Source: a virus
Virus record (IMG/VR): IMGVR_UViG_3300050821_007132
Span: 1 to 49,744 of that record
Strand: one strand, 5' to 3'
DNA: 49,744 nucleotides
In this document: positions 9,052 through 47,611 of the stretch, piece after piece
Numbering within the stretch: the stretch's first letter is position 1
Layout: every line of letters begins with the position of its first letter
Notes under the pieces: generated by a model
Told to the model about the DNA's origin: nothing
The model's database searches: none
What the model saw: only the letters and a program-made list of their open reading frames with translations
Made by a program: the position numbers and the translations under genes

Positions 9052-9057
9052 CCTACA

Positions 9058-10159: not shown

Positions 10160-10539
10160 GGGCGCGCGGATTGAAGTTTGCGCAAGCCTCAGAACACGAA
10201 GAGCAGGCGGCTTTGGTAAGCTGGGCCTTCACGTTCCGCAAATCCTATCCAGAATTGGAGATGCTGTTCGCTATCCCGAACCAAGGCGCAGCCAGACTCA
10301 AGAACCTACAAACCGAAGGCGTGATGAGAGGAGTACCGGATTTGATGCTGGCGGTAGCGCGTGGCCCGTGGCATGGGCTGTTCATCGAGCTAAAGAGACG
10401 CAAGGGCGGGAAGCTGAGCATGGAGCAGATCGGCTGGCTGTCGAGGTTGGCGGCTGAGGGCTACTGTGCGATTCGGTGTGATGGCTGGGACGAGGCCAGA
10501 GAGGGGATACTGAGATATCTGCGGGGAGAAAGTGAATGA
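10156..10539 (+). CDS. VRR-NUC domain nuclease
   Basis: A 127-residue product with the single-domain VRR-NUC pattern: an N-terminal EHEEQAALVSWA helix (Glu), AIPNQGAAR, GVPDLMLA (metal-binding Asp), and FIELKRRKGGKLSMEQ (Glu-x-Lys catalytic pair, then Gln). These PD-(D/E)XK nucleases cut structured or branched DNA. Length and order fit stand-alone phage members. ATGA coupling places it in the replication operon. Confidence 0.8.
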   Translation: MRARGLKFAQASEHEEQAALVSWAFTFRKSYPELEMLFAIPNQGAARLKNLQTEGVMRGVPDLMLAVARGPWHGLFIELKRRKGGKLSMEQIGWLSRLAAEGYCAIRCDGWDEAREGILRYLRGESE

Positions 10540-18189: not shown

Positions 18190-18783
18190 ATGGCACAGAA
18201 TGTTGGAAATCTGACTTCTCAAGTTAGCGAGCGCGCCCGCGACCCCAATCAGACGGGCACGACGCAAGCCAACGTCATCCTGCTTTTCTCCTTCTGCCAG
18301 CAAGTCGTCAATGGTGTCCTCGCCGACGTGACCGTGCAGGATGTCCTGCCTCTGACGGCGCGTCAACTCATCTATCCCATCTTCGCCAATATGCCGGACT
18401 CGGTGCGCGTGCTGGCGGTGCGCGATGCGAGCGAGCGAGACCTTCAACCCTTCGGTGAGTTCGCAGGCCTCGGCAACGTCAAGAATAGTTGGCCTTCGTC
18501 GTACTCCGATACGCCCCGAAGCTACGCACCCTGCGGTCGTGACCTCCTCATTATATATCCTGGTCCCACCGGCACGCCGATCCTCACCGTCATCTCCGCT
18601 GCACTGACGACCGCACTCACTCTTCCTGCCCAAACGACACAGGTAACGAACGACAGCGACGATGCCGTGATGGACCTCTGCGAAGTTCTGTTGCTCTTGA
18701 AAGCGCGGGACATTCCCGACTGCCAGAAGATAATCGAGCGATTCAAAAATCGGATGGCGGCATTGGAGACGGAGCCGAAGTGA
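18190..18783 (+). CDS. putative structural protein, unknown
   Basis: A 197-residue product, mixed helical with a hydrophobic beta centre (RDLLIIYPGPTGTPILTVIS). Ends by GTGA overlap. Position between terminase and tail-type genes suggests a virion connector or tail role, but no family was recognised. Confidence 0.5.
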   Translation: MAQNVGNLTSQVSERARDPNQTGTTQANVILLFSFCQQVVNGVLADVTVQDVLPLTARQLIYPIFANMPDSVRVLAVRDASERDLQPFGEFAGLGNVKNSWPSSYSDTPRSYAPCGRDLLIIYPGPTGTPILTVISAALTTALTLPAQTTQVTNDSDDAVMDLCEVLLLLKARDIPDCQKIIERFKNRMAALETEPK

Positions 18784-19337
18784 GTTCCTTCACCGACTGC
18801 CAAGGGATCGTAAATTTGCTCAGTAACGGCCAAGCGGACACCAATCTGTTCCAGCTACAATATAATGATGTAGTCAACACGCTCGGCCCGAAACGCTGGC
18901 ATACGACTACCGCCATCGTGAACGTCACCGAAGGTACGCCCCTAATCACCCTGCCTGCATCCCTGCTCGACCTCATCAAAATCATCTACGACGGCAAGTC
19001 GTGTTCTCTCTTGGAACTGAGAGAAGTCGAAGTGCTGAACTCGGGCTGGCGCAACGCCGTAGGCACGCCCATCGCCTATATAGAGGAAGCAGAATCGGCA
19101 CAGACGGTGGAACTCTACCCCGCTCCATACACGAACAGCCCACCGACCGCGCTCGCCATCTACGTGGAGAGTCGCGCGAACGTACTGCCCATCTTGACGC
19201 TGCCGGTAGCTTTGCTCGTACTCCAACGGGAGTTTTCCCGCGAGTCCGACCACACATCAGTGGACTTCGCGAATCTCTGCGGAGAATTGGGCATGATGCT
19301 CTTGGATATGCTCGATGCGCCGGAGAATCATCTTTGA
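18780..19337 (+). CDS. head-tail adaptor / tail tubular A-like protein
   Basis: A 185-residue product with GTG start. Features shared with short-tailed phage adaptors: N-terminal helices, a beta segment with WHTTTAIVNVTEGTPLITLP and TVELYPAPYTNSPPTALAIY, and helical C-terminus. The same QVEIYPPP-type segment occurs in the protein at 42801-43844. The adaptor assignment is an inference from layout. Confidence 0.45.
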   Translation: MSSFTDCQGIVNLLSNGQADTNLFQLQYNDVVNTLGPKRWHTTTAIVNVTEGTPLITLPASLLDLIKIIYDGKSCSLLELREVEVLNSGWRNAVGTPIAYIEEAESAQTVELYPAPYTNSPPTALAIYVESRANVLPILTLPVALLVLQREFSRESDHTSVDFANLCGELGMMLLDMLDAPENHL

Positions 19338-19945
19338 GCAACGTGATTCCATTCCCGCGACTCAAGCAGCCCAAGGACTTCGCCGATGCGACCGTTCAGA
19401 TCAACAAGGCATTCGAGATGTTCCGCCAAGCGATAATGAATGCAGGTGGTACGGGCGGCGTGCCGATGGCGGAATTTCTCGCCCTGCAAGCTCAGGTGAA
19501 GAATCTCACCGCGCTCTCCGGCAACGACATCAACAACGGCGGCACCGGCAACCCAGCGCCGACTCCGGCAACGCAGACCGTCACGACAGACGGCACCACC
19601 ATCACCGGCGACGGCGGCTCGTCTCCCATCTCGCTGGTTGTACCAGTCACACTACCCGATGGTGGCACCGGAATCGTTCAGGCAGGTACGCAGCAAATCA
19701 CCACCAACGGCACCCTCATTGGCGCTGGGACGGCGCAGGCGCAACCGGCGCTGACCTTGCCGGGGGTGACGACTAAATCCGCCGTGGCGTGGAGCCTGCC
19801 CAATGTTCCCGATGCTACGTGGCAGACTGGCATTGCCATGATATTCGTATGCACCGCCAACACGGTGACGCCCTATCTTATCAATCCAACAGCAGCGGGC
19901 ATCACGCCTATCGCGCAACTGGTGAATATCAAGGTGATTCTGTGA
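19334..19945 (+). CDS. fibre-like protein
   Basis: TTG start inside the TTGA overlap with the previous stop. The 203-residue product has a helical N-terminus (MSNVIPFPRLKQPKDFADAT), then Gly/Thr-rich repeats typical of phage fibres (TLPDGGTGIVQAG, TQQITTNGTLIG) and a beta-rich end. Likely a tail fibre or fibre-attachment protein. Ends by GTGA overlap with the secreted phosphoesterase gene. Confidence 0.5.
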   Translation: MSNVIPFPRLKQPKDFADATVQINKAFEMFRQAIMNAGGTGGVPMAEFLALQAQVKNLTALSGNDINNGGTGNPAPTPATQTVTTDGTTITGDGGSSPISLVVPVTLPDGGTGIVQAGTQQITTNGTLIGAGTAQAQPALTLPGVTTKSAVAWSLPNVPDATWQTGIAMIFVCTANTVTPYLINPTAAGITPIAQLVNIKVIL

Positions 19946-22029
19946 GAATGGTCCTGCTATTCATCTTGCTCACGCCCGCGTTAGCCAGCGCGCAAGTACT
20001 TTGTCCTCTATGCGATTGCTCCTTCGATGCAATCTCCGGTTCCACCACAGCCTCAACCGGCGGCAACCTCAACACGAGCATAGCGATTGCGGACCCCGGC
20101 GTTCACATCGGAGATTCAGTGTTGTGTCTGGTCGGCTACGACTCGTACCTGCACGGAATTAATGCGATCGATAACACATGGACAAATCTCGGAAATCTGC
20201 AACTGCCTGATGGCTCGGGCGAATCGTTGCTCTTGCAGAACTACCCCGGATCGTATCCGACGGCCAGTTTTCAAAATCTGAGCACTCTGATTGCCGAGAA
20301 CTGGTCGGCCATCTGCGTTGCGAGTTCGTATCGCGCGTCTCTCGATGGCCTCGTGACGAGTCTGGCTAACGCGGCCTCGACCACCGCGACGGCTCCCAAG
20401 GTCGTGATAGACCAAACCCTCACGTCTCTGTTTAACTTCTGCTCCGCGCCGGGGACGATCGCCTTCTCGTCGCCTACTCTCGGATCGCTGGTCGCGCAGC
20501 AACACGCCTTCGGGCCGAGCGTGGCGGTAGCCAATAGCCGCGATGCGATTGTCTCTCCCACGTCCGCGAACCAGATCACGCTCAGCACTTCGGCGGTGTC
20601 GGGCTGCATATCGGCGGCGTTCAAGTGCGGGCCAAATCCGACGCCTACGGCCACTGCCACCGCGACGCCCACGGCGACCGCGACTGGCGCAACCGCCACT
20701 GCGACCGCAACGGCTACACCAACTGCAACCGCAAGCCCTACCGGCTCGATCACGAATATCGTGGTGATCGAAAAGGAAAACCGCAGCTACGATAATTACT
20801 TCGGTACCTTCCCGTGCTCGGGCGGTCCTTGCGGAGTCTCGACGGCGACCCTGAGTACGGGCGCCACCTACGCGCTGACGCGCGGGATGGATACGACCTC
20901 GACGGACTTCGACCACGACTACATTCCATTCATCACCGACATCGACGGCGGCTTGATGGACGGTTTCGATAAGGCTCCGTGGTGTACCTCGACCAGCACG
21001 CCACCCTACGGCTGTCTCATTCAGCAGGTGCAGGCGGACATCCCGAACTACTGGACGTTGGCGACGAACTACGCGCTCGGCGACAATATGTTTCCTGACA
21101 TCATCGGCCCCAGCCAGCCGAATCACTTGGCGATGCTGTTCGCGAGTTCCTTCTTCGACATCAGCAATACGTGGAATAACGGCACGACGCAGAGTTGGGG
21201 CTGCGATGCACCGCTGAAAGCGAGCGACTGCACGGCGGCGAACGTGCCGGGGCCGCAATGCACCGGCGCGGGAACCTGCCCGACCTGTACGGCGACGACT
21301 TCGGCCTACGTTCAACTTCTAGGACAGACGCCGAATACGAAGTACCCATGCTTCACGCAGACTTCTCTTATGGACGAAGCGGCGACCGCCAGCGTCAGTT
21401 TCAAGTGGTACGGCGATATAACGTTCGGCGACACCGGCTATTACTGGACCGCGCCGGATGAGTTGATTCGCTTCACCAACGGGACCGCGAATTGGACGAG
21501 TCACGTCGTGGCATCCACCCAATTCACTACCGATGCCGACGCGGGCACGTTGCCGCAGATTGCGTGGGTAACGCCGGACCTCGCGCATAGCGAGCATCCG
21601 CTGGAAGGTATCTGCACCGGCGAGAACTGGACCGTCAACCTGCTCAATCATCTGTTCGCGGGGCCGCAGGGGGCGCACACCGTCGTCTTTATCGTGTGGG
21701 ACGAAAGCGGCGGCCTTTATGATCACGTAAATCCGCCAGTCATTCAGAGCGTCGGCGCGAATCGGCTATCGGCTGGTCCACGGGTGCCTGTGCTGGTCGT
21801 CTCGCCGTATGCTCGCGCGACGGGCGGGGTCGCTGCCAACGTAAACCATACGCAGGTGCTATTCTCTTCAATCGTGAGGCAGATCGAAAACCAATTCGGA
21901 CTGGCGCGACTCGGTGGTCACGATTCGACCGCGAACGACATGAGCAGTTTTCTCAATCTCAACCAGGCACCGATAACATGGACGCCGCTGACTCAGAGGA
22001 CGGGAGGATTATGCGTTACGTCGCCGTAG
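19942..22029 (+). CDS. secreted two-domain protein with phospholipase C/acid phosphatase-type phosphoesterase
   Basis: GTG 19942 (GTGA overlap) gives 695 residues. A Sec signal peptide MRMVLLFILLTPALASA is followed by a Cys-containing beta-sandwich-like domain (to about 230), a Thr-Ala-Pro linker (about 233-268) and a phosphoesterase domain of the PF04185 type. The latter has VIEKENRSYDNYFG (275-288), QPNHLAML, EHPLEGICTGENW, VWDESGGLYDHVNPP (585-599) and GPRVPVLVVSPYA. That family includes bacterial phospholipase C and AcpA-like acid phosphatases, acting on phospholipid or phosphate esters outside the cytoplasm. An export signal on a gene inside the virion operon is odd: the protein may be secreted by the infected cell or be a virion fibre taken from host genes. 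Confidence 0.75.
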   Translation: MRMVLLFILLTPALASAQVLCPLCDCSFDAISGSTTASTGGNLNTSIAIADPGVHIGDSVLCLVGYDSYLHGINAIDNTWTNLGNLQLPDGSGESLLLQNYPGSYPTASFQNLSTLIAENWSAICVASSYRASLDGLVTSLANAASTTATAPKVVIDQTLTSLFNFCSAPGTIAFSSPTLGSLVAQQHAFGPSVAVANSRDAIVSPTSANQITLSTSAVSGCISAAFKCGPNPTPTATATATPTATATGATATATATATPTATASPTGSITNIVVIEKENRSYDNYFGTFPCSGGPCGVSTATLSTGATYALTRGMDTTSTDFDHDYIPFITDIDGGLMDGFDKAPWCTSTSTPPYGCLIQQVQADIPNYWTLATNYALGDNMFPDIIGPSQPNHLAMLFASSFFDISNTWNNGTTQSWGCDAPLKASDCTAANVPGPQCTGAGTCPTCTATTSAYVQLLGQTPNTKYPCFTQTSLMDEAATASVSFKWYGDITFGDTGYYWTAPDELIRFTNGTANWTSHVVASTQFTTDADAGTLPQIAWVTPDLAHSEHPLEGICTGENWTVNLLNHLFAGPQGAHTVVFIVWDESGGLYDHVNPPVIQSVGANRLSAGPRVPVLVVSPYARATGGVAANVNHTQVLFSSIVRQIENQFGLARLGGHDSTANDMSSFLNLNQAPITWTPLTQRTGGLCVTSP
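19969..19984 (+). repeat. dispersed palindrome, copy in signal peptide
   Basis: CTCACGCCCGCGTTAG, 15 of 16, encoding LTPAL of the signal peptide; the same codons recur at 41248 and 43870. Confidence 0.7.
20638..20745 (+). repeat. Thr-Ala-Pro linker repeat
   Basis: Degenerate (GCN ACN)n DNA encoding the linker of the secreted phosphoesterase. Wobble positions vary, so the protein repeat is kept while DNA identity is partly lost. Confidence 0.8.
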
Positions 22030-22289
22030 TGCTGGCGTTGCTCGCAGCCTGCAACCCCTATCGCGGGAATCCTGACGGCATTCAGGGTGAGGCGGTCTGG
22101 CAGGCGAGGCAAGAGATTTGCGCTGCGGCTCGAACGGGTGCGCCGCTGGTGCCGGATGCCGCGATGGGGATGGCGATATTCGACTACGAGAACAAGCAGT
22201 GGGACGATGACGACTGCGTGATTCGTCCGAAGGCGGGCCAGATAAACAGGCTGCTCAACGTGCGTCCGACAGGGCCGGATTGGTCGTGA
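22011..22289 (+). CDS. small lipoprotein
   Basis: GGGAGG before ATG 22011. Begins MRYVAVVLALLAACNPY with lipobox LAAC at Cys15; 92 residues. The mature part has a few Cys and acidic residues (DYENKQWDDDDCVIR). It overlaps the upstream gene by 19 bases and ends by GTGA overlap. Possible outer-membrane anchor; function unknown. Confidence 0.6.
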   Translation: MRYVAVVLALLAACNPYRGNPDGIQGEAVWQARQEICAAARTGAPLVPDAAMGMAIFDYENKQWDDDDCVIRPKAGQINRLLNVRPTGPDWS

Positions 22290-24268
22290 AACGAATAGCG
22301 ATTATCGCCGTATTGCTCGCACTACTCTTACCGACGAAGGGATGGGCGCAGAGCGGCGTCGATTCCACCAGCATCGTACAGCACAAGTCCTGCCCGAACC
22401 TGACGCCAAGCGGGTCTGTGGCGACATGCGCGTTCACGAGTTCACCGGCAACCGGCAATCTCATCATCGTGGTTGGAGCGACGGGCGGCACGACCATCAC
22501 GCAGACGATCACGAGCAACAACGGGAGTTGCACCTCGCGCGAAGTGCAGACCGGCCAGAACGCAGGGCTGCAAATCGCGGAATGTACTGTTACGGCGAAC
22601 AGCGCCACGACCATCACGGACACGCTGTCGTCGGGCAATCTCGTTACTGCGCTGGAAATCATGGAAGTCCACGACACTGGCGGCGTCATCTCATTTGACG
22701 TGGCAGGCGGCGTGAAGAACGGGTCGCTCTCAGCCAATGCTCCAACCGGCGCGACGGCGGCGACTAATAACGTGGTGGACTTCTGCGTGGCGGCGCTGGC
22801 TTTTGCCAGCACGGTTGCCAAGACTCCGACCGCAGGGCCGGGATTGTTGGCAGCAGCGGTTCCGTCTGCGTGGAACACTATCGACAACAACGCGACCATC
22901 GGACCGGGGATGCTGACGGCGAGCACCGTCACGAGCGCATCAGGATTGGCTGTTCAGTCGGCGTGGTCATGGAGCGGCGCGACGCCGAGCACCGGCGGCA
23001 CGGTCTGCTACAAGGGGCAGGTGCAGCCGACGATTGCGCCGGTGGGGACGCCAGCGGCGACGAATCTCAGTGGTACGAGCACGGTGGTCACTATCGCGAG
23101 CACGGCGGCGGGCGCGTGTAATCGGATTCAGCTATGCGATACCAGCGGAGTCTTTGTGACACCTTCTTGCTCGGGCAATAATTGCACCTGCACCCGAGTT
23201 CTTGGGGCTACCACATGGAACACGACAGGCAGCAAGGCGGTATTTTTGTGTAGTGGATGCACGGGAAATCCCACCTGCACGTTTGGCGTAACTGTCGTCG
23301 GAAATCCTGAAGCCGTTGCGGACGCATATTCTGGCTCCGCTTGTACGGTCGATTGCACGGGGGCTGGCGACCAGACCGGCAGCAGTGCGACCTCGACATC
23401 GAATAGTCTTAGTTCCTGCAATCAGGGAGATGCGCTTCTTTACGATGCGTGTAGTGCTGGCGCGACGGCATCTTCAAATTCGACTCCGCTCGCTACCACG
23501 GTCTCGATCAACGTCGCAGGGACTCCGACAAATCTTCTCGCCTACTACTTCGATACCGCCCCCTCGACTAATACATCCCCCGCGCAGAGCCGCACACAGG
23601 GCAACGTCGCATGGGTATCCGGTGCGGTAGGGCTGGCACCGGCATCAGCGGCGACCGCGACGGCTACAGCGACAGCTACCGCCACTGCTACCGCTACGGC
23701 TACGGCAACAGCCACGGCCACCGCTACCGCAACTGCCACAGCCACAGCTACGGCAACGGCTACCGCGACAGCTACCGCAACAGTGACGGCAACGCCCACG
23801 CCGATCGCTACGCCTACGGCGACCGCTACGGCTACGGGCGGCGCTCCGACCCCTACGGGAGTGTGCACCCCCAATGCGACTATCTCGCTACTGAACCACA
23901 ACAAGAACGTGCTGAATGGAACGGCATCAGCAGTCGTCGGCAAGGGTGCGAACTGGTTTGCATGGGGTATCGACACCAACGCGAGCGACAACATCGTCGA
24001 TGCTTTCAACGCAGGTACGGCGAGCGGTACAACGGCGGCAGTCAATAAAACCATTCGCATCGTGGACGGGAATAACCTCGTTTGCACCGGCACCACCGTG
24101 AGCAGCACGCCCGCCTGCTCAACGCTGCCCTGCGACGTGATCACCGTTCGTGTCTGTAACACGGAAGGCAGCGTAGCGGGATGCACGGAAAGCGCGACGA
24201 CGGCACTGCCTAGCATGTCGGTTTATATTCAGGACGCCAACGGATTCATTGACGACATTATTCCGTGA
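22286..24268 (+). CDS. secreted multidomain adhesin-like protein
   Basis: GTG 22286 (GTGA overlap) gives 660 residues. Signal peptide MKRIAIIAVLLALLLPTKGW then AQ. Two Thr/Ser/Gly-rich beta-sandwich-like domains with paired cysteines (to about 450), one of the longest Thr-Ala linkers in the genome (about 453-525), and a C-terminal domain beginning PTGVCTPNATISLL. No catalytic motif seen. It should be exported; binding to surfaces or polysaccharide is a guess. Confidence 0.6.
   Translation: MKRIAIIAVLLALLLPTKGWAQSGVDSTSIVQHKSCPNLTPSGSVATCAFTSSPATGNLIIVVGATGGTTITQTITSNNGSCTSREVQTGQNAGLQIAECTVTANSATTITDTLSSGNLVTALEIMEVHDTGGVISFDVAGGVKNGSLSANAPTGATAATNNVVDFCVAALAFASTVAKTPTAGPGLLAAAVPSAWNTIDNNATIGPGMLTASTVTSASGLAVQSAWSWSGATPSTGGTVCYKGQVQPTIAPVGTPAATNLSGTSTVVTIASTAAGACNRIQLCDTSGVFVTPSCSGNNCTCTRVLGATTWNTTGSKAVFLCSGCTGNPTCTFGVTVVGNPEAVADAYSGSACTVDCTGAGDQTGSSATSTSNSLSSCNQGDALLYDACSAGATASSNSTPLATTVSINVAGTPTNLLAYYFDTAPSTNTSPAQSRTQGNVAWVSGAVGLAPASAATATATATATATATATATATATATATATATATATATATATATATVTATPTPIATPTATATATGGAPTPTGVCTPNATISLLNHNKNVLNGTASAVVGKGANWFAWGIDTNASDNIVDAFNAGTASGTTAAVNKTIRIVDGNNLVCTGTTVSSTPACSTLPCDVITVRVCNTEGSVAGCTESATTALPSMSVYIQDANGFIDDIIP
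23644..23850 (+). repeat. long Thr-Ala linker repeat
   Basis: About 200 bases of GCN-ACN dipeptide repeat with varied wobble bases inside gene 22286-24268. Similar tracts occur at 20638, 24945, 25726, 41275 and 46615. Confidence 0.8.
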
Positions 24269-25896
24269 AGAAACTCGTCCTTACCGTTGCGTTCCTGCTC
24301 ATCAGCCGCTCCGCATTCGCGGCACTTGCCTTTGTCGCCAGCGCCACCGGCACGGCATCCTCGTCTCCCTGCGTCGTGAACGTCCCTACGGGCACGCTGA
24401 ATAACCATTGCATGATTCTCCAATGGTCCTACGCCTGTACGTCCGCTCCTACGACACCATCGGGCTGGACAGTCATTCGGCACGATACAGACGGTTCCGG
24501 TGCCATCTCTAATCTCTACTACCGCGTAGCGAGCAGCGAACCAGCCAGCTATTCACTCGCAATGGGATCGTGCGCCTTCCAGACTTGTGCCATCGCGACG
24601 TATTCTGGCTGCAACACGGGCGGACCCATCGGAGCGACATCCGGCAACGGTTCTGGCGGTACGCAAGGAACCAGTGCGGTTGCCAATTCAATCACGACGA
24701 CGGGATCAAATAGTTTCGTTCTAGGCGAATATGAGTTTAGTTCGGGCGGTACGATAGCGACTCTGCCGGGAGCTTTGACCTTCCGCTATAACATGTCTGC
24801 CGGAGCCTTCAACCATGTCGGCGAAGCGATGGGCGACCAAGCCATCGTGAGTTCCGGCACCGCTAGCGGTAACCAGACCGCGATGCTCAATCAGAACTCA
24901 AACTGGATCGGGCAGCAAGTGGAAGTGCTGGCTAGTGTTGCGGCGACGCCGACCCCAACACCAACAGCTACCGCGACAGCGACGGCGACAATCTCAGCAA
25001 CGCCGACTCTAACAGGTACGCCGAGCATCACTGCAACACCAACAGCGACGGCCACGGCCACGGCGACCGCCACAGCTACCTCTACGGCCACGGCTACGCC
25101 AACCGGCGTGCCTACGGTTACAACGGGTCTCGGCTCCTGCACTCTCGGCAGCAATGGCGTTCAGGCCAACAACGTCCTCATCGGCGGCATCGTGTACGAC
25201 AGTAGCCAAGGTACGGCGACGCTGACCCCGCCCCCGAACTGGACTCTGTTCAAGACTTGGAATCTTGGCGGGGCCGATGGAAACTGGTACTGGCATACCG
25301 TCACCGCGACTGAGCCTGCGTCGTACACATGGAGCCTCAACGCCCTAAAAGCCATGAGTTGCGGCTACGACGTAATCACCGCCTCATCTAATCCGATGAA
25401 CCCGATTGACGTGGTAGGCGTAGCAGGGATCAATTGCGCATCCTCGACTTGCACGGCGGCGGGTGTCACCACCACCCAATCCAACGATATTCTCGGCTAC
25501 GGCGGTGCGACGTTTCTGATTGGCGTCATCGGCTATCCCACGAATTTCTTCCCCGGCTACGAAATAGGCGGTACGTTCCAGCAGATGGGTGACGAACTTT
25601 CCCACAACTACACCTGCGGGGGCGCAGGGCCAACAGGAAGCGTCAGCGGCGTGGTCGGCGGTGCTGGACAGGCTTCCAACTTCCTATTCGCTCTCAAGGG
25701 ACCGCAGGGGCCTTGCACGTCAACTCCGACGCCAACGGCAAGTGCCACGGCCACCGCAACGTCTACAGGCGGTGCGACGCCATCAGCTACAGCAACGGCG
25801 ACGATTACGGTAATATGTCCGACGCCGGGACTGGAAGGTAAATTTGGAAGTGGGTACTGCCCACCAGGATGTCCGCATTGCCCTCCAAAAGAATAG
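24265..25896 (+). CDS. secreted protein with duplicated beta-sandwich domains
   Basis: GTG start in a GTGA overlap; 543 residues with signal peptide MKKLVLTVAFLLISRSAFA. Two related domains: the first has PSGWTVIRHDTDGSG and SSEPASYSLAMG, the second PPNWTLFKTWNLGG and TATEPASYTWSLN, joined by a Thr-Ala linker (DNA 24945-25104). A second linker (25726-25803) leads to a short Cys-rich tail (CPPGCPHCPPKE). The 'GWT...EPASY' pattern is known from secreted bacterial beta-sandwich domains of uncertain function. Confidence 0.6.
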   Translation: MKKLVLTVAFLLISRSAFAALAFVASATGTASSSPCVVNVPTGTLNNHCMILQWSYACTSAPTTPSGWTVIRHDTDGSGAISNLYYRVASSEPASYSLAMGSCAFQTCAIATYSGCNTGGPIGATSGNGSGGTQGTSAVANSITTTGSNSFVLGEYEFSSGGTIATLPGALTFRYNMSAGAFNHVGEAMGDQAIVSSGTASGNQTAMLNQNSNWIGQQVEVLASVAATPTPTPTATATATATISATPTLTGTPSITATPTATATATATATATSTATATPTGVPTVTTGLGSCTLGSNGVQANNVLIGGIVYDSSQGTATLTPPPNWTLFKTWNLGGADGNWYWHTVTATEPASYTWSLNALKAMSCGYDVITASSNPMNPIDVVGVAGINCASSTCTAAGVTTTQSNDILGYGGATFLIGVIGYPTNFFPGYEIGGTFQQMGDELSHNYTCGGAGPTGSVSGVVGGAGQASNFLFALKGPQGPCTSTPTPTASATATATSTGGATPSATATATITVICPTPGLEGKFGSGYCPPGCPHCPPKE

Positions 25897-28658
25897 CAAT
25901 CCACGACTTCGATTCCCGCCTCTGGCTATCGGGTGGGCGAGACCAAGTGCCGCAGAACGGTGCGCGCCGTCTCGTGGGCGCGGCCCCTGAACTGACACGA
26001 AGCATCCAGTCGCGCTGGGGATCGACATTCATTTCCAATATCAACTCGATTTCTCTCTTTCAGTACAACGGCATCCGCTACGAATACGACGGTGTGAATC
26101 TCTACGCGAACGGCGTAATCGTCACTCAGAACGGCTCGGCAATCGTCTGGAATGGCGGATTGCTCACCTTCAACGTGATGCCGCCGCAGGAAGGCTTGCC
26201 GGATTACCTGTTCATCATCGGCGGTGGCAACGCCATCAAGATTGCGCCGTCGTTGGTCGGCGGACAGCCGGTAGTGGCAGCGCAGCAGGTGACGTTGTGG
26301 GGAATAGAGGCTCCCCCTGACGGCATGAGCGCATCGCTCGGCCTTCAGGAAGTCCAAGTAATCGACGCCTGCGACACCACAGCAGGCTCGTGGACCAATC
26401 ATCCGAATTGCACCGTCTCCAACTCCAGCACCGACCCCTTCTCCGGCTCCGCGAGTATGTTGGTGAGCCTCAGCGGTTCGGGGCCGACGCATATTACGCG
26501 CGCCGCGCCCGTCAGTCCGTCTCCATTGCCGAGCATGTTGACCTACGGCGACGGGACAATCTCGCTGCCGTCTGACATCATCTCGTTCTATTTCAAGTGC
26601 CCCAAGCCAGTGAAAATCGGCTGGCTCTGGCTGACCTTCAATGTCGGCACGGGAGCCATCGGCGATAAGAACTGGCCCGATTACTACCGCCTTGTCGTCC
26701 AGATCGTACAGACCACGAACCAGAAGAACGCAGCGGGCGCGCAGGTTATCGTGACGCCCTCGACCGACCAATGGATTCAGATAGCAGCACCGAAGTCCGC
26801 ATTCATGCGAATCGGCAACAACTTGAATCTCGACTGGTCAGACGTGAATTTCGTCCGGTTCAACATTGGCGACTTAGGCGACTCGTCGGCCACCTCGTGC
26901 GAGTTCGATGCCTTGACCATGTTCGGTGGATTTCCACTAGGCGCTGGTCCTGCGGCCCTGCTGGGCGGCTCCCAGTACCGATACTACGTCACCTTCGGCA
27001 ACAACCTGACCGGCTCGGACTCCAATCCGCAGGGAATGCAGTTACTTGGTAACGGCACGACATCGCAGCCGAATCCGTCTGTGGTAGGCGGCGTGGCCGT
27101 TCAGGAAGTAACCCTCAGCAACATACCGACCTCGCCGGACCCGCAAGTCGGCAACCGCAAGATTTGGCGCACGTCCGCCGGAGGCGCGGTCCCGTTCTAT
27201 GCTTTTACGATCCCCGACAACACGACGACTACGTTCACCGATTTCTACGGCGACTTGCCGGGGCAGCCGATCATCGCAACGCCGTGGACGAAATCTGTTT
27301 CGGTGGACAGCACGATTCCCGATTACGTCGATGGCGGCAACGGCTACTACTTCAAAGCGACGACATCGGGGACGACAGGCTTAACTCTGCCGAATTGGGA
27401 CATTCCGACCGGAGCCTTTCTAGGTTTCTGGAGTCCAATCACTCAGTACCTCGTTGGCAATTGGGTGAGTTTCAACGGCACCGGCTACGCCTGCATCGCA
27501 CCCGCTCAAGGACCGACGCAATCGCCTACCAACGCGGCTTATTGGGTCGTCATCGGCACGACCCCTGAGAACACCGTAGTCTGGACGTGGGCTGGCCTGA
27601 ACGAAGTGCCCCATCTCAGCCTCGACATGCAACTCCTGCTGGACAACGCGCCCCCGCAGATTACCTATGGCGATGCCGTGGGACCGTACCAGGGGTCGAT
27701 GTGGTGGGGCCGCGACTCGGTGCCGGGACGCCGTGGCTGGATATACTCGTCACCACCGGGCCGTCCCGAATCAGTGGCAAATCAGTTCGCTCCGACCAGC
27801 GACGATGACCCGACACAGAAACTCGTCATCTTCGATTACACACTCTGGCTCATCACCACGAAGATTGCATTTCAGACAGACGGTCAGAATCCCGAAATCG
27901 TGTTCTACCCCATCATGTACGCGACGGGGACGACGAATCCGTTCAGTGCCGTAGCGGGGCAAGAGGGCATCTACTATCAGGCAAGCGACGGAATCCGCAT
28001 CATCAATCGCGCTGGCTCATTTCTCCCCGGATTCGAGGCTCTGGATACGATTCAGCGCGGGCAGCAATCCGAGAACGTGCTGCCGTTCGTCGCCAACGTT
28101 GCTGCCTATTGCCGCAACGAAATAATCTTCTCGAATGGTCAGTACAGTTTCGGACTCCAACGCGGCGGCGATGGCTACGTCTGGCGCATTCTTGGTGTAG
28201 GACTCCAAGCCCTCTACTACGAGCGCAACGACAACAAGATTCTGGCGTCGTTCTACGGGCTGACGATGTTGTATGAAGACCCGCAAGTGCTGGTCGATCA
28301 GTCGGCAAATCCGCTCATCGTGAACGGCGTCATGTTCGAGCTTCAAACGCCGTCTCAACTCCCCGACGAAGGGCAGGTAGCGGTCATTCGCAGAATCTTC
28401 ATCGACATCGACTGCCAAGTTGAGCCTGCGGCGCCCGCACAAGTAGTCGGCGTCATCGCTATTTGCGACAACGTGGAGACGAGCTTGGGCAACATCACGA
28501 ACACGGCGCGGAGCACGATTGAGCTTGCTTTCCAGCAACCGGCACGGCAGTTCAGCCTTCGATTGTTAGGCTGTCTTACCAACCGGATTGAAGTATTCGG
28601 CGTCGAACTAGATGTGGCGCTGACGGGCGCGGAAATAACGCAGGGGGCGAGTGCGTGA
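25869..28658 (+). CDS. large virion (tail hub/tubular) protein with carbohydrate-binding-like segment
   Basis: A 929-residue product with no signal peptide. The beta-rich N-terminus (GAAPELTRSIQSRWGST, FQYNGIRYEYDGVNLY) resembles the beta-propeller-like tail or DNA-stabilising proteins of short-tailed phages. Around 518-560, FWSPITQYLVGNWVSFNGTG then YACI and YWVV has the spacing of a CBM5/12 carbohydrate-binding module. Its size and place after the fibre and secreted genes and before the ejection-type proteins fit a tail hub or tubular B protein. Not certain. Confidence 0.5.
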   Translation: MSALPSKRIAIHDFDSRLWLSGGRDQVPQNGARRLVGAAPELTRSIQSRWGSTFISNINSISLFQYNGIRYEYDGVNLYANGVIVTQNGSAIVWNGGLLTFNVMPPQEGLPDYLFIIGGGNAIKIAPSLVGGQPVVAAQQVTLWGIEAPPDGMSASLGLQEVQVIDACDTTAGSWTNHPNCTVSNSSTDPFSGSASMLVSLSGSGPTHITRAAPVSPSPLPSMLTYGDGTISLPSDIISFYFKCPKPVKIGWLWLTFNVGTGAIGDKNWPDYYRLVVQIVQTTNQKNAAGAQVIVTPSTDQWIQIAAPKSAFMRIGNNLNLDWSDVNFVRFNIGDLGDSSATSCEFDALTMFGGFPLGAGPAALLGGSQYRYYVTFGNNLTGSDSNPQGMQLLGNGTTSQPNPSVVGGVAVQEVTLSNIPTSPDPQVGNRKIWRTSAGGAVPFYAFTIPDNTTTTFTDFYGDLPGQPIIATPWTKSVSVDSTIPDYVDGGNGYYFKATTSGTTGLTLPNWDIPTGAFLGFWSPITQYLVGNWVSFNGTGYACIAPAQGPTQSPTNAAYWVVIGTTPENTVVWTWAGLNEVPHLSLDMQLLLDNAPPQITYGDAVGPYQGSMWWGRDSVPGRRGWIYSSPPGRPESVANQFAPTSDDDPTQKLVIFDYTLWLITTKIAFQTDGQNPEIVFYPIMYATGTTNPFSAVAGQEGIYYQASDGIRIINRAGSFLPGFEALDTIQRGQQSENVLPFVANVAAYCRNEIIFSNGQYSFGLQRGGDGYVWRILGVGLQALYYERNDNKILASFYGLTMLYEDPQVLVDQSANPLIVNGVMFELQTPSQLPDEGQVAVIRRIFIDIDCQVEPAAPAQVVGVIAICDNVETSLGNITNTARSTIELAFQQPARQFSLRLLGCLTNRIEVFGVELDVALTGAEITQGASA

Positions 28659-40865: not shown

Positions 40866-41197
40866 TCACAGCAGAAGAAGTAGCGAACTCGTTGATGGCC
40901 GGAAACGTCATTCAGGACAAAGCTGTTGCCCATCCTGCCGGATTAATGGAGCAGGTCGGAGAGATTCTGAAGGCCAAGGGCTTCGAGCTTCGCCACGAGA
41001 GCGACGTATATACGGTCAAGGGGCAGGCTAAGGCGCTTGCCGCCAAGACAGCCAAAGATGCGGCAGACAAGGCGGCTGTGGCGGCAAAGGAAGCGGCTGC
41101 GAAGGCTGCGACAGCGAAGGTAGTGGCGGATCAGGCGGCAGTAGCAGCGAAGGCAGCGGCACAGCCTGTGGCAGCGCCGACTACGGGAACCGAGTGA
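40862..41197 (+). CDS. Ala/Lys-rich helical protein
   Basis: ATGA overlap; 111 residues. A folded N-terminal part (VGEILKAKGFELRHESDVYT) and a long Ala/Lys repeat (KDAADKAAVAAKEAAAKAAT) similar to histone H1-like tails. May bind DNA or act as a coiled spacer in the head. Function unknown. Confidence 0.5.
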   Translation: MITAEEVANSLMAGNVIQDKAVAHPAGLMEQVGEILKAKGFELRHESDVYTVKGQAKALAAKTAKDAADKAAVAAKEAAAKAATAKVVADQAAVAAKAAAQPVAAPTTGTE

Positions 41198-41817
41198 GTC
41201 TAATGCGAAGTCTTAAATACGTTCTCGTTGCACTAGGCTTGCTGTGCCTCACGCCCGCGTTATCCTTTGCGCAGACCGCGACGGCCACAGCGACTGCCAC
41301 CGCCACGGCGGTAACGGCTACGCCCGCTTCGACGCCCTCGCCTACGGGTACGACGTTCTCAGGCGTGACTCATTTCGGATACTTGGCAACCGTCACGAAG
41401 TCCAATGGACTGCTTGGCGGCTACATGGTGCAACTGAAGGCGACTGCGGCCCTGCTCTATGGGCAGGTCGTCATACCCGATGCGTCGAATAATAATTCGG
41501 TTGTCGTCGCGGCCAGCGGAGCCACAAACCCGATTGGCGTGGTAGTCGGCTGTGTCGGAGCCGTGGCCGGAAGCACGCAACCAGGAGCCAAGTTCGGCTG
41601 TAATCCTGCGGCGGCACAGACCGCGATGGTTCTGATGGACGGTGTTGCGCAAGTCGTATGCGATAGGGCCATGAGTCCGGGGCAGGTCGTTATGACCAGC
41701 ACGCTCGTTAACGGAATGGTAGGCCCCTACGTCGCGGGCACCGTGGATGAGCAAATCGGCGTCTTGCTGAGTTCGTGCGCCGTCAACGGAACGGCGAATA
41801 TGCTGGTCTATAAATAA
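41194..41817 (+). CDS. signal-peptide protein with decoration-like domain
   Basis: GTG start in GTGA overlap; 207 residues. Signal peptide ending LCLTPALSFAQ, a Thr-Ala-Pro linker (DNA 41275-41351), then a domain like phage decoration proteins of the DUF2190 kind (ATNPIGVVVGCVG, VLMDGVAQVVCDRAMSPGQV, DEQIGVLLSS). A decoration-type domain behind an export signal is unusual: the protein may leave the cell instead of joining capsids in the cytoplasm. Confidence 0.55.
   Translation: MSLMRSLKYVLVALGLLCLTPALSFAQTATATATATATAVTATPASTPSPTGTTFSGVTHFGYLATVTKSNGLLGGYMVQLKATAALLYGQVVIPDASNNNSVVVAASGATNPIGVVVGCVGAVAGSTQPGAKFGCNPAAAQTAMVLMDGVAQVVCDRAMSPGQVVMTSTLVNGMVGPYVAGTVDEQIGVLLSSCAVNGTANMLVYK
41248..41263 (+). 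repeat. dispersed palindrome, copy in signal peptide
   Basis: CTCACGCCCGCGTTAT, 14 of 16; encodes LTPAL of the signal peptide. Confidence 0.65.
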
Positions 41818-42358: not shown

Positions 42359-42820
42359 GTGGAAACCATTGACCGCTTTTTGGATAAGGTGCAGTTCGAG
42401 CCAATGTCGGGATGTTGGCTATGGACTGCGAGTCGCGGCACGGGCGGCTATGGACAGTTTGGATTAGGGCCGAGAACCGCAAAGCGCCGTCTCTTCGGCG
42501 CGCATCAAATCTCGTACAAATTGTTCAAGGGTGAGGTACCAGAAGGGTTGGTGCTTGACCATATTTGCGAGGTCCGGTCATGCGTCAATGCCGACCATCT
42601 GCGTCCCGTTACTCACCGATTCAATATTTTAAGGGGTAGTGCGCCATCGGCGAAGGCTGCGCGAGCGACCCATTGCCCGCAAGGTCATGCGTATGAAGGG
42701 AAGAATTTATATATCACTCCGCTAGGAGACCGGAAGTGCAGAACGTGTCATCGAGAACGCTACCGCAAAGCGCATGGATTGGAAGGGTCGGGACGATTTT
42801 ATGGCGGTTCAGATAAGTGA
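42359..42820 (+). CDS. HNH homing-type endonuclease
   Basis: GTG start, 153 residues. The HNH_3-type motif is complete: GCWLWTASRGTGGYGQF, AHQISYKLFKGEVPEGLVLD, then HICEVRSCVNADHLRPVT with the catalytic His and zinc cysteines, and a C-terminal CPQGHAYEG...CRTCHRER zinc site. This group are free-standing homing endonucleases in phages. It lies between small head-type genes and the adaptor-like gene, whose start it overlaps. Confidence 0.8.
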   Translation: METIDRFLDKVQFEPMSGCWLWTASRGTGGYGQFGLGPRTAKRRLFGAHQISYKLFKGEVPEGLVLDHICEVRSCVNADHLRPVTHRFNILRGSAPSAKAARATHCPQGHAYEGKNLYITPLGDRKCRTCHRERYRKAHGLEGSGRFYGGSDK

Positions 42821-43844
42821 CGTTGCGCGGCAGGCCGTAGCGCAACTTGGCCTAGATTCTGGGTACGAATTGAGTGCCCAGTTTTGCGGCCAAGCGTATG
42901 CGGAATTATGTTCGCGGGCCAAGTTTCGCCATCTCCGCAAGCTAGGCACCCTGTACATGCCCGCGCCCATCCAGACGGGCACCTGCACGATCACTTTCGA
43001 TTCTCCGACGATAACGCTGGACGCTACGGCGCTGGCCGCATGCGAGGCGAATCAGTTTCTACAGTGGCCGGATGGGTTTGAGGGGCTGTTCTTCCGGCCT
43101 CAGATCGGCATTACGTGGTATCAGATTTCGCGCGCTTACGTGGACCCCTCGACAGGCGTTGGAACCGTCGTCCTAACAACGCCGTTTGCCTTCGACAATT
43201 CGTATCTGATTACGTCGCCTCCTCCGCCTCCGCCCGTACAGCAGGCGGGCGTGACTTTTTATATTCTCCCTCGATTCTATGCGCTCGCGCCCGATGCACG
43301 GCAATTAGGCGTATTTGGTTGTGACTTCGTATTCCGGCCCCTGCAAGTGGTCAGCGAAGACCAGTTGAACATGATGGTGCCGAGCCGGTTTCTCGTCTCG
43401 ACGTATCCGCAATTCGTGGCCGAGATGAACTCGAATCTCGACCAGACCGGCGTACCTAAGCAAGTGGAGATTTATCCTCCTCCAACCAACTCAGTCACGG
43501 TGCATTATACCTACTACGCAACACCGAAGATTTTGCAGTGGGAAGACTTCCTGCCGCCGACGATAGACCCAGACACCATCCGGTCTGGTGCGATGGCTCA
43601 GATCGCCTCTAATCGCTCAGGAAAGGCCGTCCGCGCGGGCAACCTCGAAGAAGCCGCGTACTGGCGAAACGTTAGCAATCAGGAGCGGACGGCATTCGAG
43701 GCCAAGATACCGAAGGCCATCAGGAACGATAGGGGCATCGAAGACATCAAGTTTCTGCTCAAGGGCATGACATCGAATAGATACCCCCTTGACTGGGATC
43801 CGAACCGGGACGCAGTGAGCAATTGGATACTGCGTGGCTACTAA
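42801..43844 (+). CDS. head-tail adaptor/tail tubular-like protein
   Basis: ATG 42801 (MAVQISDVARQAVAQLG) chosen; 347 residues. N-terminal helix bundle and beta segments including KQVEIYPPPTNSVTVHYTYY, a pattern shared with gene 18780-19337. The C-terminus (GNLEEAAYWRNVSNQERTAF) is helical. Probably part of the neck of a short tail. Inference from layout. Confidence 0.45.
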   Translation: MAVQISDVARQAVAQLGLDSGYELSAQFCGQAYAELCSRAKFRHLRKLGTLYMPAPIQTGTCTITFDSPTITLDATALAACEANQFLQWPDGFEGLFFRPQIGITWYQISRAYVDPSTGVGTVVLTTPFAFDNSYLITSPPPPPPVQQAGVTFYILPRFYALAPDARQLGVFGCDFVFRPLQVVSEDQLNMMVPSRFLVSTYPQFVAEMNSNLDQTGVPKQVEIYPPPTNSVTVHYTYYATPKILQWEDFLPPTIDPDTIRSGAMAQIASNRSGKAVRAGNLEEAAYWRNVSNQERTAFEAKIPKAIRNDRGIEDIKFLLKGMTSNRYPLDWDPNRDAVSNWILRGY

Positions 43845-44169
43845 ATTCGTCATTGCGCTACTTCTATGCCTCACGCCCGCGTTAGGTTGGGCGCAGAGCA
43901 CGACTATCGTTGGCACTTGCGACCAGTATCAGCCGGGGGCGGGTGGAGACTTCTGCATCAACACGGGTGCGGCGACCTATTGGCAGCAGTTCACCGGAGA
44001 TGTGGTGAATACTCGCAACGTGCCGCAATGTTCTCCGACGAACACGACTGCCTGCGGAAAGCTGACGGTTCAGGGGATAAACGGCGTGCCGCTAAACGGG
44101 ACATTGGCTGACGGGCAGACCTGGTGCTATCAGGCATCGTCCAACACGATGATCCCGTGCGCACCTTAA
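43834..44169 (+). CDS. secreted one-domain Cys protein
   Basis: GTG start; 111 residues with signal peptide ending LCLTPALGWAQ. The mature domain (GGDFCINTGAATYWQQFTGD; CGKLTVQGINGVPLNG; WCYQASSNTMIPC) is closely related to the C-terminal domain of the next, much larger protein. Four to six cysteines probably form disulfides after export. Function unknown. Confidence 0.6.
   Translation: MATKFVIALLLCLTPALGWAQSTTIVGTCDQYQPGAGGDFCINTGAATYWQQFTGDVVNTRNVPQCSPTNTTACGKLTVQGINGVPLNGTLADGQTWCYQASSNTMIPCAP
43870..43885 (+). repeat. dispersed palindrome, copy in signal peptide
   Basis: CTCACGCCCGCGTTAG, 15 of 16; encodes LTPAL of the signal peptide. Confidence 0.7.
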
Positions 44170-47165
44170 TTGCCATTCTCGCCATTCTGTTACCTTCATT
44201 AGCCTTCGCTACTCCTACGCCGACGCCTACCGCCGTGGCTACCTCTGTGCCGACTTCTCTCGTGGGCGGTTCCAATCGGATCGGTACGAATCTTGGCAGT
44301 CAGGATTTTCAGGGCTGCTGCGGTGGCAATTATATGCAAAACCTGTTCGACAATCCCGGTCTGGAGCCGAGCACGGACGGGCATTTGATGCAGGTAGGCA
44401 GCGGAGGCACGAGCAGCACCTTTACCGACACCTTGGATCAGGGCGAAGCGACGGGGTACTGGGTCGGTGCTCAAGCATCGGTCAGGGTGGGCGCGGCGGC
44501 AGGTACCACATTCACGATTACAGGCTATACGGCGGGCGGTTCCTATACCTTCGGCTCGTGCTCTCCGAGTTGTCCGACGCTAAGTTCTGGTAACTGGGTA
44601 GCGGAGGTACTGACGAGCGTCAACGTGGCTGGGAACATGGACACCAACGTCATTGGTGGCTGGGGCGGCGTCCACGACGGGCATTGCCTGCTCTCCACCG
44701 CAGACAAGTACGAGGGACAAGGGTCCGTAGCCTGCGATGTCGCGGACGGTTCCGCTCACACCTTCGATTACGGCTGGGATTTGTCCACTACTACCGGCGG
44801 CGTATGCGCAGACGATAATGTAACGCCTTGTACCGTAGCGAATCAGGCAACGGATTGCGCGACAGTGTGTTTGACTGCTCCGCAAGCTGGACCTTGGCAT
44901 CCGATTGTAGGAAGTTTCGAGACTTCGTTCTGGGCCAAAGGTGCGAATACATCGACCGGCACGCCGCAGGTATCGTTTCAGCTTTATCGGACCGCTGGCG
45001 GCGGCGTGAACGTCAGTCACATATGGACTCTCACCAATGATGGCGCATGGCATCAATATACCTACTCGTTCACCGGCAACGACGTAGTGAACCAAAACTC
45101 CCTGCTCTATACATTCTCCACGACCAATAACTCGGCAGAAACCGGCGCGACCATCTATATTGACGATGCTTATTTGGGCAGAGCAGCTTCGTCGGCCACG
45201 GGATTCCGTACCGAGATGATTTCGACCATGCAGGCGATCAATCCGGGTTCCACGCGCTACGCCGCCTACGATCAGCTTGCGACGAATGACAGAGGCTACG
45301 AGGGGCCGAGCGGGTGCGTAATAGGCTCCAGCCCGACGACTACCGGCACCTGCGACATGCTCCACGGGACGGCGTTCAATACTACTGGCGGCGGTGTCTG
45401 GGTATTCGCAGGACAGGACGCATACGCTCTCGACAATGCTGTCGGGGCCGAACCCTACATGACCATCGGCAACGTGATGAGTGACGCCGACCTCAAGACG
45501 TTCATCGACAATATGTGTTCGGCTCTAACCACCTATAATTTCCCGGCGACTTGGGTCGCGCAGAGCAACGAGGATTGGAACAATCATCAAGGGCGTATCT
45601 CATTTGGCGCATCCGGCTGGTCGGCCAACTACGCAACCAACGCTGCCCGAAACTTCAGCATTATGAGTACGGAAGCGACTAGCCACTGCCCGAGTCTTGC
45701 GAGCCGCATTCACTACATCATGAACAATCAGGCGTGTGCGGGTCCGTTCGCCTACATTCAAGCCGCCTATGCGAACAACTTCGGGAGCATTCCCAACACG
45801 AGCCAGTACGGCTTCGAGAGCGCGCCTTACGTACCGGCTAGTGGATCGCTGCCGAGTGAGAGCGGTAATCTTACTGCCCAAGCGGCTGCGTATGCGGCGC
45901 TGCAATTCGGGACTTCCGGCGTGGAAGCCTACATGCCGCCCTCTGGTTGTCTGGTAGCTGACGATTACGCACCGCTCCAATCGAATAACTTTCTCACGTT
46001 CTACGAAGAAGGTCCGAATGCCGTAGGCGGCGGGGCCAACACAGAGCAGTTCTATCTCTCTGAGGCCGGTTATCCATCGGCGGCGTGGATGGCGGCTAAT
46101 TGGCTGCTGGGTCAGCAACTAGGCAAGACACCGATTCAGAACGAGTATCAGTTTTCGCAGATAGAGTTCGGGCAGGGAGGCAATTCCGCCCCTATTTGGG
46201 GAGAGACGCACGATTTGGATTTTGACTTTGGCCCAGCGACTCCTCATTTACGGTCGGTCGGCGTCGGGAAAGAAGTCGTTAATGCGGGAATTCAGGGAAA
46301 TTATTATCCCTTGTCGAATTTACCTAGTGGCGTTTACGGTAGTGCCTATAACTCGAACGGTAGTGCGACTGGGCTTTGGTCTGCGGTCCTGACCAACAGT
46401 AACAATAGCGCGATTCCGATGGCGATTGTGTTCCCCGGTACGGGCACGGCACCCGGCAGTTGTACGGCGACAATAAATACCAACGGAATCACCGATAATG
46501 CAGAGAACTCAAGCGACGTTCGCACTGGATCGTGTACTTTTACCTCATGTGTGGGCAATACCTGTCCTTTTACACTGCAACCATATCAGGTCGTAGCGTT
46601 CGCCCCAGCGAGTGGAGCGACTCCGACAGCGACGGCAACAGCCACGGCCACCGCTACCGCGACAGGAACCGCCACGGCTACCGCTACAGCCACCGCAACG
46701 GCGACCCCTACTGTCAGCGCGACGCCCACCGTTAGTGCTACACCGACCCCATCGGTCACTGCGACGCCGACAGTATCAGCAACACCGACGATATCAGCGA
46801 CACCTACCGCTACGGCCACCGCCACTTCGACTGCAACGGCAACAGCGACGGCCACAAGTACAGCCACGCCTACAGCCACTGCCACCGCGACGCCGACTAG
46901 CACAGCGACACCCGGTCCCTGTGACGTGCATCCGGGCGTTCCGGGCGATTATTGCCTGAATACCGGATCGACAACGCAATGGACGCCGTTCACTGGGGAT
47001 GTCAGCAACGTTCGCAATACCACGACCTGCAATCAGTTCAACCATACAAAATGTGGCAAGCTGACGGTTAACGGCATGAAGGGCGTCCCCTTCGTCGGTA
47101 CGCTCACGAATCATCAGAAATGGTGCTATCACGCCGCCAACAAGACCATGATACCGTGCAACTGA
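44157..47165 (+). CDS. large secreted glycosidase-like protein with binding domains
   Basis: GTG 44157 gives about 1,002 residues. Signal peptide MRTLIAILAILLPSLAFA, short Thr-Pro linker, N-terminal beta domains with Cys pairs, then a region resembling clan-A glycoside hydrolases: EPYMTIGNVMSDADLKTFID, and WVAQSNEDWNNHQGRISFG, where the NE pair matches the usual acid/base Asn-Glu, and FLTFYEEGPNAVGGGANTEQ as a possible nucleophile strand. A long Thr-Ala-Pro linker (DNA 46615-46916) leads to the same Cys domain as gene 43834. A secreted polysaccharide-degrading enzyme is likely but not proven. Confidence 0.55.
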   Translation: MRTLIAILAILLPSLAFATPTPTPTAVATSVPTSLVGGSNRIGTNLGSQDFQGCCGGNYMQNLFDNPGLEPSTDGHLMQVGSGGTSSTFTDTLDQGEATGYWVGAQASVRVGAAAGTTFTITGYTAGGSYTFGSCSPSCPTLSSGNWVAEVLTSVNVAGNMDTNVIGGWGGVHDGHCLLSTADKYEGQGSVACDVADGSAHTFDYGWDLSTTTGGVCADDNVTPCTVANQATDCATVCLTAPQAGPWHPIVGSFETSFWAKGANTSTGTPQVSFQLYRTAGGGVNVSHIWTLTNDGAWHQYTYSFTGNDVVNQNSLLYTFSTTNNSAETGATIYIDDAYLGRAASSATGFRTEMISTMQAINPGSTRYAAYDQLATNDRGYEGPSGCVIGSSPTTTGTCDMLHGTAFNTTGGGVWVFAGQDAYALDNAVGAEPYMTIGNVMSDADLKTFIDNMCSALTTYNFPATWVAQSNEDWNNHQGRISFGASGWSANYATNAARNFSIMSTEATSHCPSLASRIHYIMNNQACAGPFAYIQAAYANNFGSIPNTSQYGFESAPYVPASGSLPSESGNLTAQAAAYAALQFGTSGVEAYMPPSGCLVADDYAPLQSNNFLTFYEEGPNAVGGGANTEQFYLSEAGYPSAAWMAANWLLGQQLGKTPIQNEYQFSQIEFGQGGNSAPIWGETHDLDFDFGPATPHLRSVGVGKEVVNAGIQGNYYPLSNLPSGVYGSAYNSNGSATGLWSAVLTNSNNSAIPMAIVFPGTGTAPGSCTATINTNGITDNAENSSDVRTGSCTFTSCVGNTCPFTLQPYQVVAFAPASGATPTATATATATATATGTATATATATATATPTVSATPTVSATPTPSVTATPTVSATPTISATPTATATATSTATATATATSTATPTATATATPTSTATPGPCDVHPGVPGDYCLNTGSTTQWTPFTGDVSNVRNTTTCNQFNHTKCGKLTVNGMKGVPFVGTLTNHQKWCYHAANKTMIPCN
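46615..46916 (+). repeat. long Thr-Ala-Pro/Val-Ser linker repeat
   Basis: About 300 bases of GCN-ACN and related codons with internal TPTVSA units, joining the glycosidase-like part to the C-terminal Cys domain of gene 44157-47165. Confidence 0.8.
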
Positions 47166-47611
47166 TTACTGACATCACGTCGCTACTCCGGTTCGAGGAA
47201 GGCGAAAAGTTGTTCGTCTACGACGATTTCAATGGTAAACCCATCACGAAAGGCTCCCGTGTCTACGGTAACCCAACCATCGGCGTGGGCCGCGCGCTGA
47301 ACGTCTCCGGCATCACGCAAGCCGAGAGCACCCAGTTACTCACTAACGACATCGCGAAGTGGTACACGGCATTTCCCGATCCTTGGTTCACGGCACTAGA
47401 CACCGTGAGGCGGGCGGCAATCGTCAGTATGGCTCATGCGATGGGTGCGCAGGGGGTGCGCGACTTCTCCGATATGATAGCGGCGCTACAGGCTCAGGAT
47501 TGGAAGGCGGCGCGCGATGCCGTGTTGCTATCGAAGTGGGCGGGTGAAGCTCCGGCACGGGCCACGCGCTGCGCCAACATGCTATGGACTGGGGTGTACC
47601 CGATAGTATGA
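47156..47611 (+). CDS. endolysin, T4-type lysozyme (GH24 muramidase)
   Basis: GTG 47156; 151 residues. T4 lysozyme pattern: RFEEGEKLFVYDD gives the catalytic Glu (14/15) and Asp (23/24), and NPTIGVGRALNV gives the conserved Thr and Gly; the loop between them is a few residues longer than in T4. The C-terminal helices (RRAAIVSMAHAMGAQGVRDF) fit the family. It cuts the glycan chain of peptidoglycan at lysis. No signal peptide, so it needs a holin. Followed at once by membrane proteins. Confidence 0.85.
   Translation: MQLITDITSLLRFEEGEKLFVYDDFNGKPITKGSRVYGNPTIGVGRALNVSGITQAESTQLLTNDIAKWYTAFPDPWFTALDTVRRAAIVSMAHAMGAQGVRDFSDMIAALQAQDWKAARDAVLLSKWAGEAPARATRCANMLWTGVYPIV

Follow-up and report, generated by a model that had tools for sequence, protein, structure and literature searches.

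Predicted export signals on fibre-like and hydrolase genes in the tail region of a podovirus-like phage with SU10-type portal and adaptors

For proteins of the tail-fibre type, synthesis and assembly in the cytoplasm are the expectation, and small phage lipoproteins encoded near tail genes are familiar from superinfection exclusion (T5 Llp, phi80 Cor, TP-J34 Ltp). In phage SU10, the long fibres gp12/gp13 and the short fibres gp16, described as attached virion parts, come from genes that lie between those of adaptor gp11 and nozzle gp17 (PMC9509320). Certain phage endolysins, Lys44 of fOg44 and the SAR endolysins among them, are sent out by the host Sec system before lysis (PMC6116005); rumen phages carry 0-2 signal peptides per genome (PMC5723332), and a study of DGR targets in phages read the absence of signal peptides as a sign of phage origin (PMC6199706). 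Phrase searches of the literature, in which subscription papers were mostly not covered, found no precedent for exported tail fibres. Here we describe a phage, one of a family of short-tailed phages from soil known only without culture, with export signals on late virion genes, which for genes of such kind and position is very unusual.

Genome organization and the two exported blocks

The window, by which we mean the whole 49,744-nucleotide stretch analysed, is a podovirus-like phage genome of about 49.6 kb from an uncultured phage. Its ends share a 97-bp repeat (49648-49744 and 1-97), and contig L050, 100% identical, crosses this overlap to join the window's end to its start; the genome is therefore complete and circularly permuted. 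Its genes include those for a large terminase (phrog_38), a capsid protein and an SU10-type portal (SU10_portal, 6.1e-11); in portal and adaptors it matches the SU10-like podoviruses. Searches of genome contigs for a host, by capsid and by phosphoesterase domain, gave no match. The first exported block, site A, is flanked by the SU10-type adaptor genes on one side and a nozzle-like gene on the other:

18190..18783, + strand: tail adaptor-like protein 1; Pfam SU10_adaptor 7.5e-5, under the curated cut-off; kept in relatives
18780..19337, + strand: tail adaptor-like protein 2; Pfam SU10_adaptor 6.9e-8, over the cut-off
19334..19945, + strand: short non-exported fibre with docking-helix stub and C-terminal domain; the only ordinary fibre candidate
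19942..22029, + strand: exported phosphoesterase of phospholipase C/acid-phosphatase type, 695 aa; Sec signal, N-terminal module, Thr-Ala linker, catalytic domain
19942..19992, + strand: Sec signal peptide of 19942, VRMVLLFILLTPALASA followed by QV; cleavage before QVLCPLC
22011..22289, + strand: small lipoprotein, 92 aa; lipobox LLAAC; N-terminus MRYVAVVLALLAA followed by C
22286..24268, + strand: exported Cys-rich modular protein, 660 aa, with long Thr-Ala linker; N-terminus VKRIAIIAVLLALLLPTKGWA followed by QS
24265..25896, + strand: exported protein, 543 aa; Sec signal; N-terminus VKKLVLTVAFLLISRSAFA followed by AL
25869..28658, + strand: large tail protein, nozzle-like in its position and size; conserved, with relatives about 42% identical

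The initial annotation had the coordinates and frames of 19942, 22011, 22286 and 24265 all correct. As it had also proposed, a Sec signal opens each of 19942, 22286 and 24265, and 22011 begins with a lipobox sequence; the signals of the three large genes are positively charged and hydrophobic and end in AxA-type sites. The linkers it described as Thr-Ala-Pro are found, as Thr-Ala(-Pro), in all three large genes. The junctions from 18783 to 28655 overlap by 4, 4, 4, 19, 4, 4, 28 and 4 nt, within a run of overlapping genes that spans 18190 to 29392 (overlaps of 4 to 28 nt). The end-to-end overlap on the + strand is thus observed; the translational coupling that had been claimed for the block is what such overlaps suggest. 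Gene order in SU10 (PMC9509320) points to a nozzle role for 25869; a PDB search with its protein gave zero matches.

The stub gene 19334, presumably a docking protein, has homologues at the same place in the relatives with a readable site A, fused to a beta-helix in G009, and its C-terminal domain is common to G001 and L089; the finding of the stub and its relatives led us to abandon the view that ordinary fibres are entirely absent from these phages. Homologues of 22286 occur in G001, L009, L010 and L089, with a signal wherever the N-terminus is readable, and the three phages known to have these genes (the window, G001 and L009) all place 22011 between 19942 and 22286. One might speculate that the lipoprotein protects the phosphoesterase or helps its folding. 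The 24265 protein consists of two homologous modules, an internal duplication, each followed by a Thr-Ala linker, and is related to G010_19.

The second block, site B, lies between the 42774 gene and the endolysin gene; it is listed here with the exported gene 41194, which comes before it:

41194..41817, + strand: exported protein with Thr-Ala linker; Sec signal; C-terminal part common to L010 and G011
42774..43844, + strand: conserved structural gene preceding site B; close relatives 55-84% identical, distant ones about 30%
43834..44169, + strand: exported small domain with six invariant Cys (alignment A3); Sec signal
44157..47165, + strand: exported large protein; Sec signal VRTLIAILAILLPSLAFA; CBM-like region, Thr-Ala linkers, six-Cys domain
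47120..47611, + strand: endolysin directly after site B; phrog_7 endolysin 7.2e-14

Here too the initial annotation's view of 41194, 43834 and 44157 as exported is borne out, with Sec signals by the same criteria. The 43834 domain recurs as the C-terminus of 44157 and within exported proteins of relatives; its AlphaFold model (pLDDT 52) was too poor for a fold search. The CBM-like stretch of 44157 matches Pfam CBM_4_9 at 0.0016, under the cut-off, and the protein probably holds a glycosidase-type domain, for which an NEDWN motif is suggestive; in the G001 homologue, the C-terminus is a Gly_rich_2 tip (1.7e-9). PDB profile searches with alignments A2, A3, A4, A7, A8 and A10 returned nothing usable.

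Elsewhere in the window, the 109-963 protein contains GDCWFACAAR, resembling the cysteine region of calpain-type proteases, with Pfam C2 at 0.082, under the cut-off, and a diverged G001 homologue (24%). A minus-strand gene of about 400 aa (32601-33746) lies between ejection-protein and portal genes; it has no Pfam family, and minus-strand genes of like size occupy the same place in relatives. Around the capsid gene are Endonuclease VII/HNH-type genes (40299-40865 and 42359-42820), probably homing endonucleases, whose placement varies in relatives. Among these relatives, the nozzle-like gene of G009 (37068-39773, minus strand) has one in-frame TAG, a sequencing error, a pseudogene or readthrough, and the 60.4-kb G006 contig repeats ~11 kb at both ends (1-10800 and 49600-60422; L030-L033), with slight differences in gene calls, making it longer than one genome unit of about 49 kb.

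Export signals and conserved slots

Signals were called by a home-made N-terminal rule in genes of at least 150 aa, gene starts in relatives being those of our own gene caller. Seven related phages have export signals in 30 of 211 genes after removal of 3 artefacts. Six control phages whose capsids are homologous (Caulobacter RW, Roseobacter CRP-901, Pelagibacter HTVC027P, Planktothrix Pag-Yong1 and two environmental genomes) have them in 0 of 192; the Fisher p of 1.3e-9 is indicative only, the relatives being non-independent. Shuffled N-termini under the same rule give 0.05-0.4 matches per genome in the group, and together with the empty controls this argues that the signals are not due to chance. 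In G006/G010 the exported proteins amount to 3,800-4,100 aa, up to about a quarter of coding capacity. Two further N-termini in the window, those of 960 and 3266, end in possible, weaker lipoboxes. A 'lipoprotein' on the minus strand at 4532 was set aside, since it is probably not a gene, and the apparent Sec signal of a 519-aa gene of G006/G010 proved false, the real start being an ATG with a Shine-Dalgarno at the end of that stretch.

Exported proteins have a median Cys content of 2.04% versus 0.90%, a statistic drawn from related phages and hence not independent. This enrichment, with the six cysteines of the 43834 domain and the two invariant ones of a second recurrent domain, DDSN, would fit folding outside the cytoplasm. 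Export out of the cytoplasm, as predicted from the signals, is strongly supported, and the proteins should therefore function beyond the cytoplasm of the bacterium.

At site B, all 14 readable contigs have an exported gene immediately downstream of the 42774 homologue, including G016, whose capsid is only 40% identical. At site A, exported genes are present in the window, G008, G011, L083 and L089, the last having three large ones in exactly the window's arrangement with largely different sequences; G009, G010 and G004 have no exported gene there. In G017, the most distant contig with a DDSN gene after an adaptor-like gene, the exported gene overlaps the adaptor gene. The slots are conserved and their content turns over.

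A mobile phosphoesterase and phage-fibre modules

The 19942 protein matches Pfam PF04185 over 355 of 356 positions (4.3e-55; 187.7 bits vs a cut-off of 23), and its closest PDB entries are the acid phosphatase AcpA (2d1g, 5.5e-20) and phospholipases C. Against the AcpA catalytic set, which we take to be E43, N44, H106, S175, D386 and D387, it aligns E279, N280, H325, S391, D587 and E588, the last Asp being replaced by Glu; H350 is off by one in the alignment with 2d1g. The alignment indicates that the active site of an acid phosphatase/phospholipase C is kept. The mature protein is 98.1% identical to that of G001 (dS 0.44, dN 0.011), and the dN/dS of 0.025 points to strong purifying selection, which with the conserved catalytic residues predicts a working enzyme. 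The signal peptide of 19942 is unrelated to those of its 96-98% identical homologues, as is everything upstream in G001, and DNA homology with G001 picks up again at the cleavage-site Ala codon, the pattern of a whole signal peptide swapped between phage types exactly at that site. G001 has a P22-like portal, with terminase and capsid of other families, and shares 19942, 22011, 22286, 44157 and downstream genes with the window; on this comparison the cassette evidently moves between phage types, here the window phage and a P22-like podovirus. A second phosphoesterase, at 1455-2657 (Metallophosphoesterase PF00149, 1.1e-4), has no signal peptide and is 83-85% identical in G001. Under the name Acinetobacter phage MD-2021a, database record CAKLQH020000009.1 and three others like it contain plcN genes; they have the look of bacterial contigs deposited as phage.

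Exported proteins of relatives match collagen-like tail-fibre families, the tail-fibre tip phrog_7049 (2.5e-7), a pectate-lyase-like region, NHL propeller repeats, beta-helix and Gly_rich_2 tips; the window's own site A genes gave no family match to fibre modules. Compared with tail fibres and tailspikes as a class, then, the group has the modules, recognized in the relatives' proteins, and departs from cytoplasmic synthesis without an export signal, as its predicted signals indicate. The DDSN domain lies behind a signal peptide in ten phages, of which some use a Sec signal and the rest a lipobox. In G013, a distant relative, it occurs (E 1.0e-24) in a 272-aa protein that starts MTTTPITTIPSPNNSF, leaving no room for a signal peptide, and the preceding gene matches tail-fibre families; from this homologue and its neighbour, DDSN is a phage-fibre domain, cytoplasmic in one lineage and exported in another. 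Its N-terminal EDAxR segment is kept in both exported and cytoplasmic versions; an AlphaFold model of the domain (pLDDT 37) was too poor for a fold search.

The initial annotation had offered either secretion of enzymes and adhesins by infected cells or 'recently captured host genes' used as fibres. Of the first, a mix of enzymes with adhesin- or fibre-like proteins in the late operon is strongly supported. The second finds no support as a general answer, because the slots are filled in every readable relative, GC3 of the exported genes (0.63-0.73) equals that of core virion genes (0.57-0.74) and so gives no sign of recent import, and both the fibre modules and the cytoplasmic DDSN homologue speak for a phage source. 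Capture at some time is likely for the catalytic part of 19942, since that domain belongs to a bacterial secreted-enzyme family. The exported genes look like, for the most part, fibre and hydrolase genes retargeted for export.

Where the exported proteins may act

The reading we prefer, at a probability of roughly 0.48, is that a tail-fibre-derived and hydrolase cassette has been retargeted through Sec and lipoprotein signals to act on the infected cell's envelope and surroundings. A fast-changing cassette in two late-operon slots beside tail genes would yield exported proteins alongside virion proteins; these would cross the inner membrane, lose their signals and fold outside the cytoplasm. 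Late in infection and at lysis they would be active in the envelope of the infected cell and around it, where they could cut or mask surface glycans and phosphate or lipid groups, so that progeny would be freed and re-adsorption blocked. Transport, disulfides, and the place and purpose of action are what we infer. A secreted or envelope role is favoured because some versions are lipid-anchored, some members are hydrolases, 19334 provides a separate non-exported fibre, and the cassette is exchanged with the P22-like G001. Retention of EDAxR counts against it, as if the domain still docked, possibly to the virion.

That segment, common to exported and cytoplasmic DDSN versions, belongs equally to the strongest competing account, a serious contender of perhaps a third of the weight: the exported proteins would be virion fibres or spikes that mature in the periplasm, disulfides included, and attach to virions once lysis has brought the compartments together. 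T4 and P22 are the classical cases in which fibres or spikes are added in vitro to particles already complete. SU10 carries gp12, gp13 and gp16 in the place that these slots occupy, between adaptor and nozzle-like genes; fibre modules occur in the exported proteins, and the window has few other fibre candidates. Yet half of the DDSN proteins have lipoprotein signals and would be held in a membrane, several members are plain hydrolases, and there are the separate non-exported fibre gene and the same cassette in a P22-like phage to account for. Its broader form, a phage clade that builds its virion partly outside the cytoplasm, from fibres with exchangeable signals that fold with disulfides in the periplasm and dock at lysis, we consider rather unlikely.

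Host-derived genes for lysogenic conversion or for metabolism (phosphate or carbon scavenging), that is, morons or auxiliary metabolic genes, are an improbable explanation. The placement of 19942 in a bacterial secreted phosphoesterase family and the second phosphoesterase at 1455 would suit them, but the block overlaps tail genes gene by gene (4-28 nt) and so forms no independent transcription unit, no integrase was recognised, and most members are fibre-like, with core-like GC3 and slots filled in all readable relatives. Least credible of all is that the signal-like N-termini go unused on ordinary cytoplasmic fibres: the signals do rest on sequence rules, and one apparent signal in G006/G010 proved false, but the signal swap at the cleavage site, the Sec/lipoprotein exchange, the Cys enrichment and the 0/192 in controls speak strongly against it.

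Either these phages secrete a receptor-destroying or matrix-cutting kit ahead of lysis, or parts of the virion mature beyond the cytoplasm. Among described systems, the group resembles SU10-like (Kuravirus) tail fibres and tailspikes in its slots by adaptor and nozzle-like genes and in its collagen-like and beta-helix modules, but differs in its signal peptides or lipoboxes, high Cys content and many genes. With the PF04185 phosphoesterases (AcpA, phospholipase C), 19942 shares a full domain and catalytic residues aligned with 2d1g; unlike them, it carries the domain behind an N-terminal module and Thr-Ala linker, in a phage tail operon. Sec-exported endolysins are likewise phage proteins with Sec signals, whereas those described here are not peptidoglycan hydrolases by family matches, are much larger, number several per genome and lie in the tail region. 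By description, the 22011 lipoprotein is like the superinfection-exclusion lipoproteins in being small, having a lipobox and sitting near tail genes, but it travels with 19942. Finally, soil viral contigs carry secreted carbohydrate- or phosphate-active enzymes described as CAZyme auxiliary metabolic genes, which the present genes resemble; the latter differ in their coupling to tail genes and their fusion with fibre modules, and secreted enzymes on such contigs are better read as belonging to the machinery of adsorption and release than as metabolic genes.
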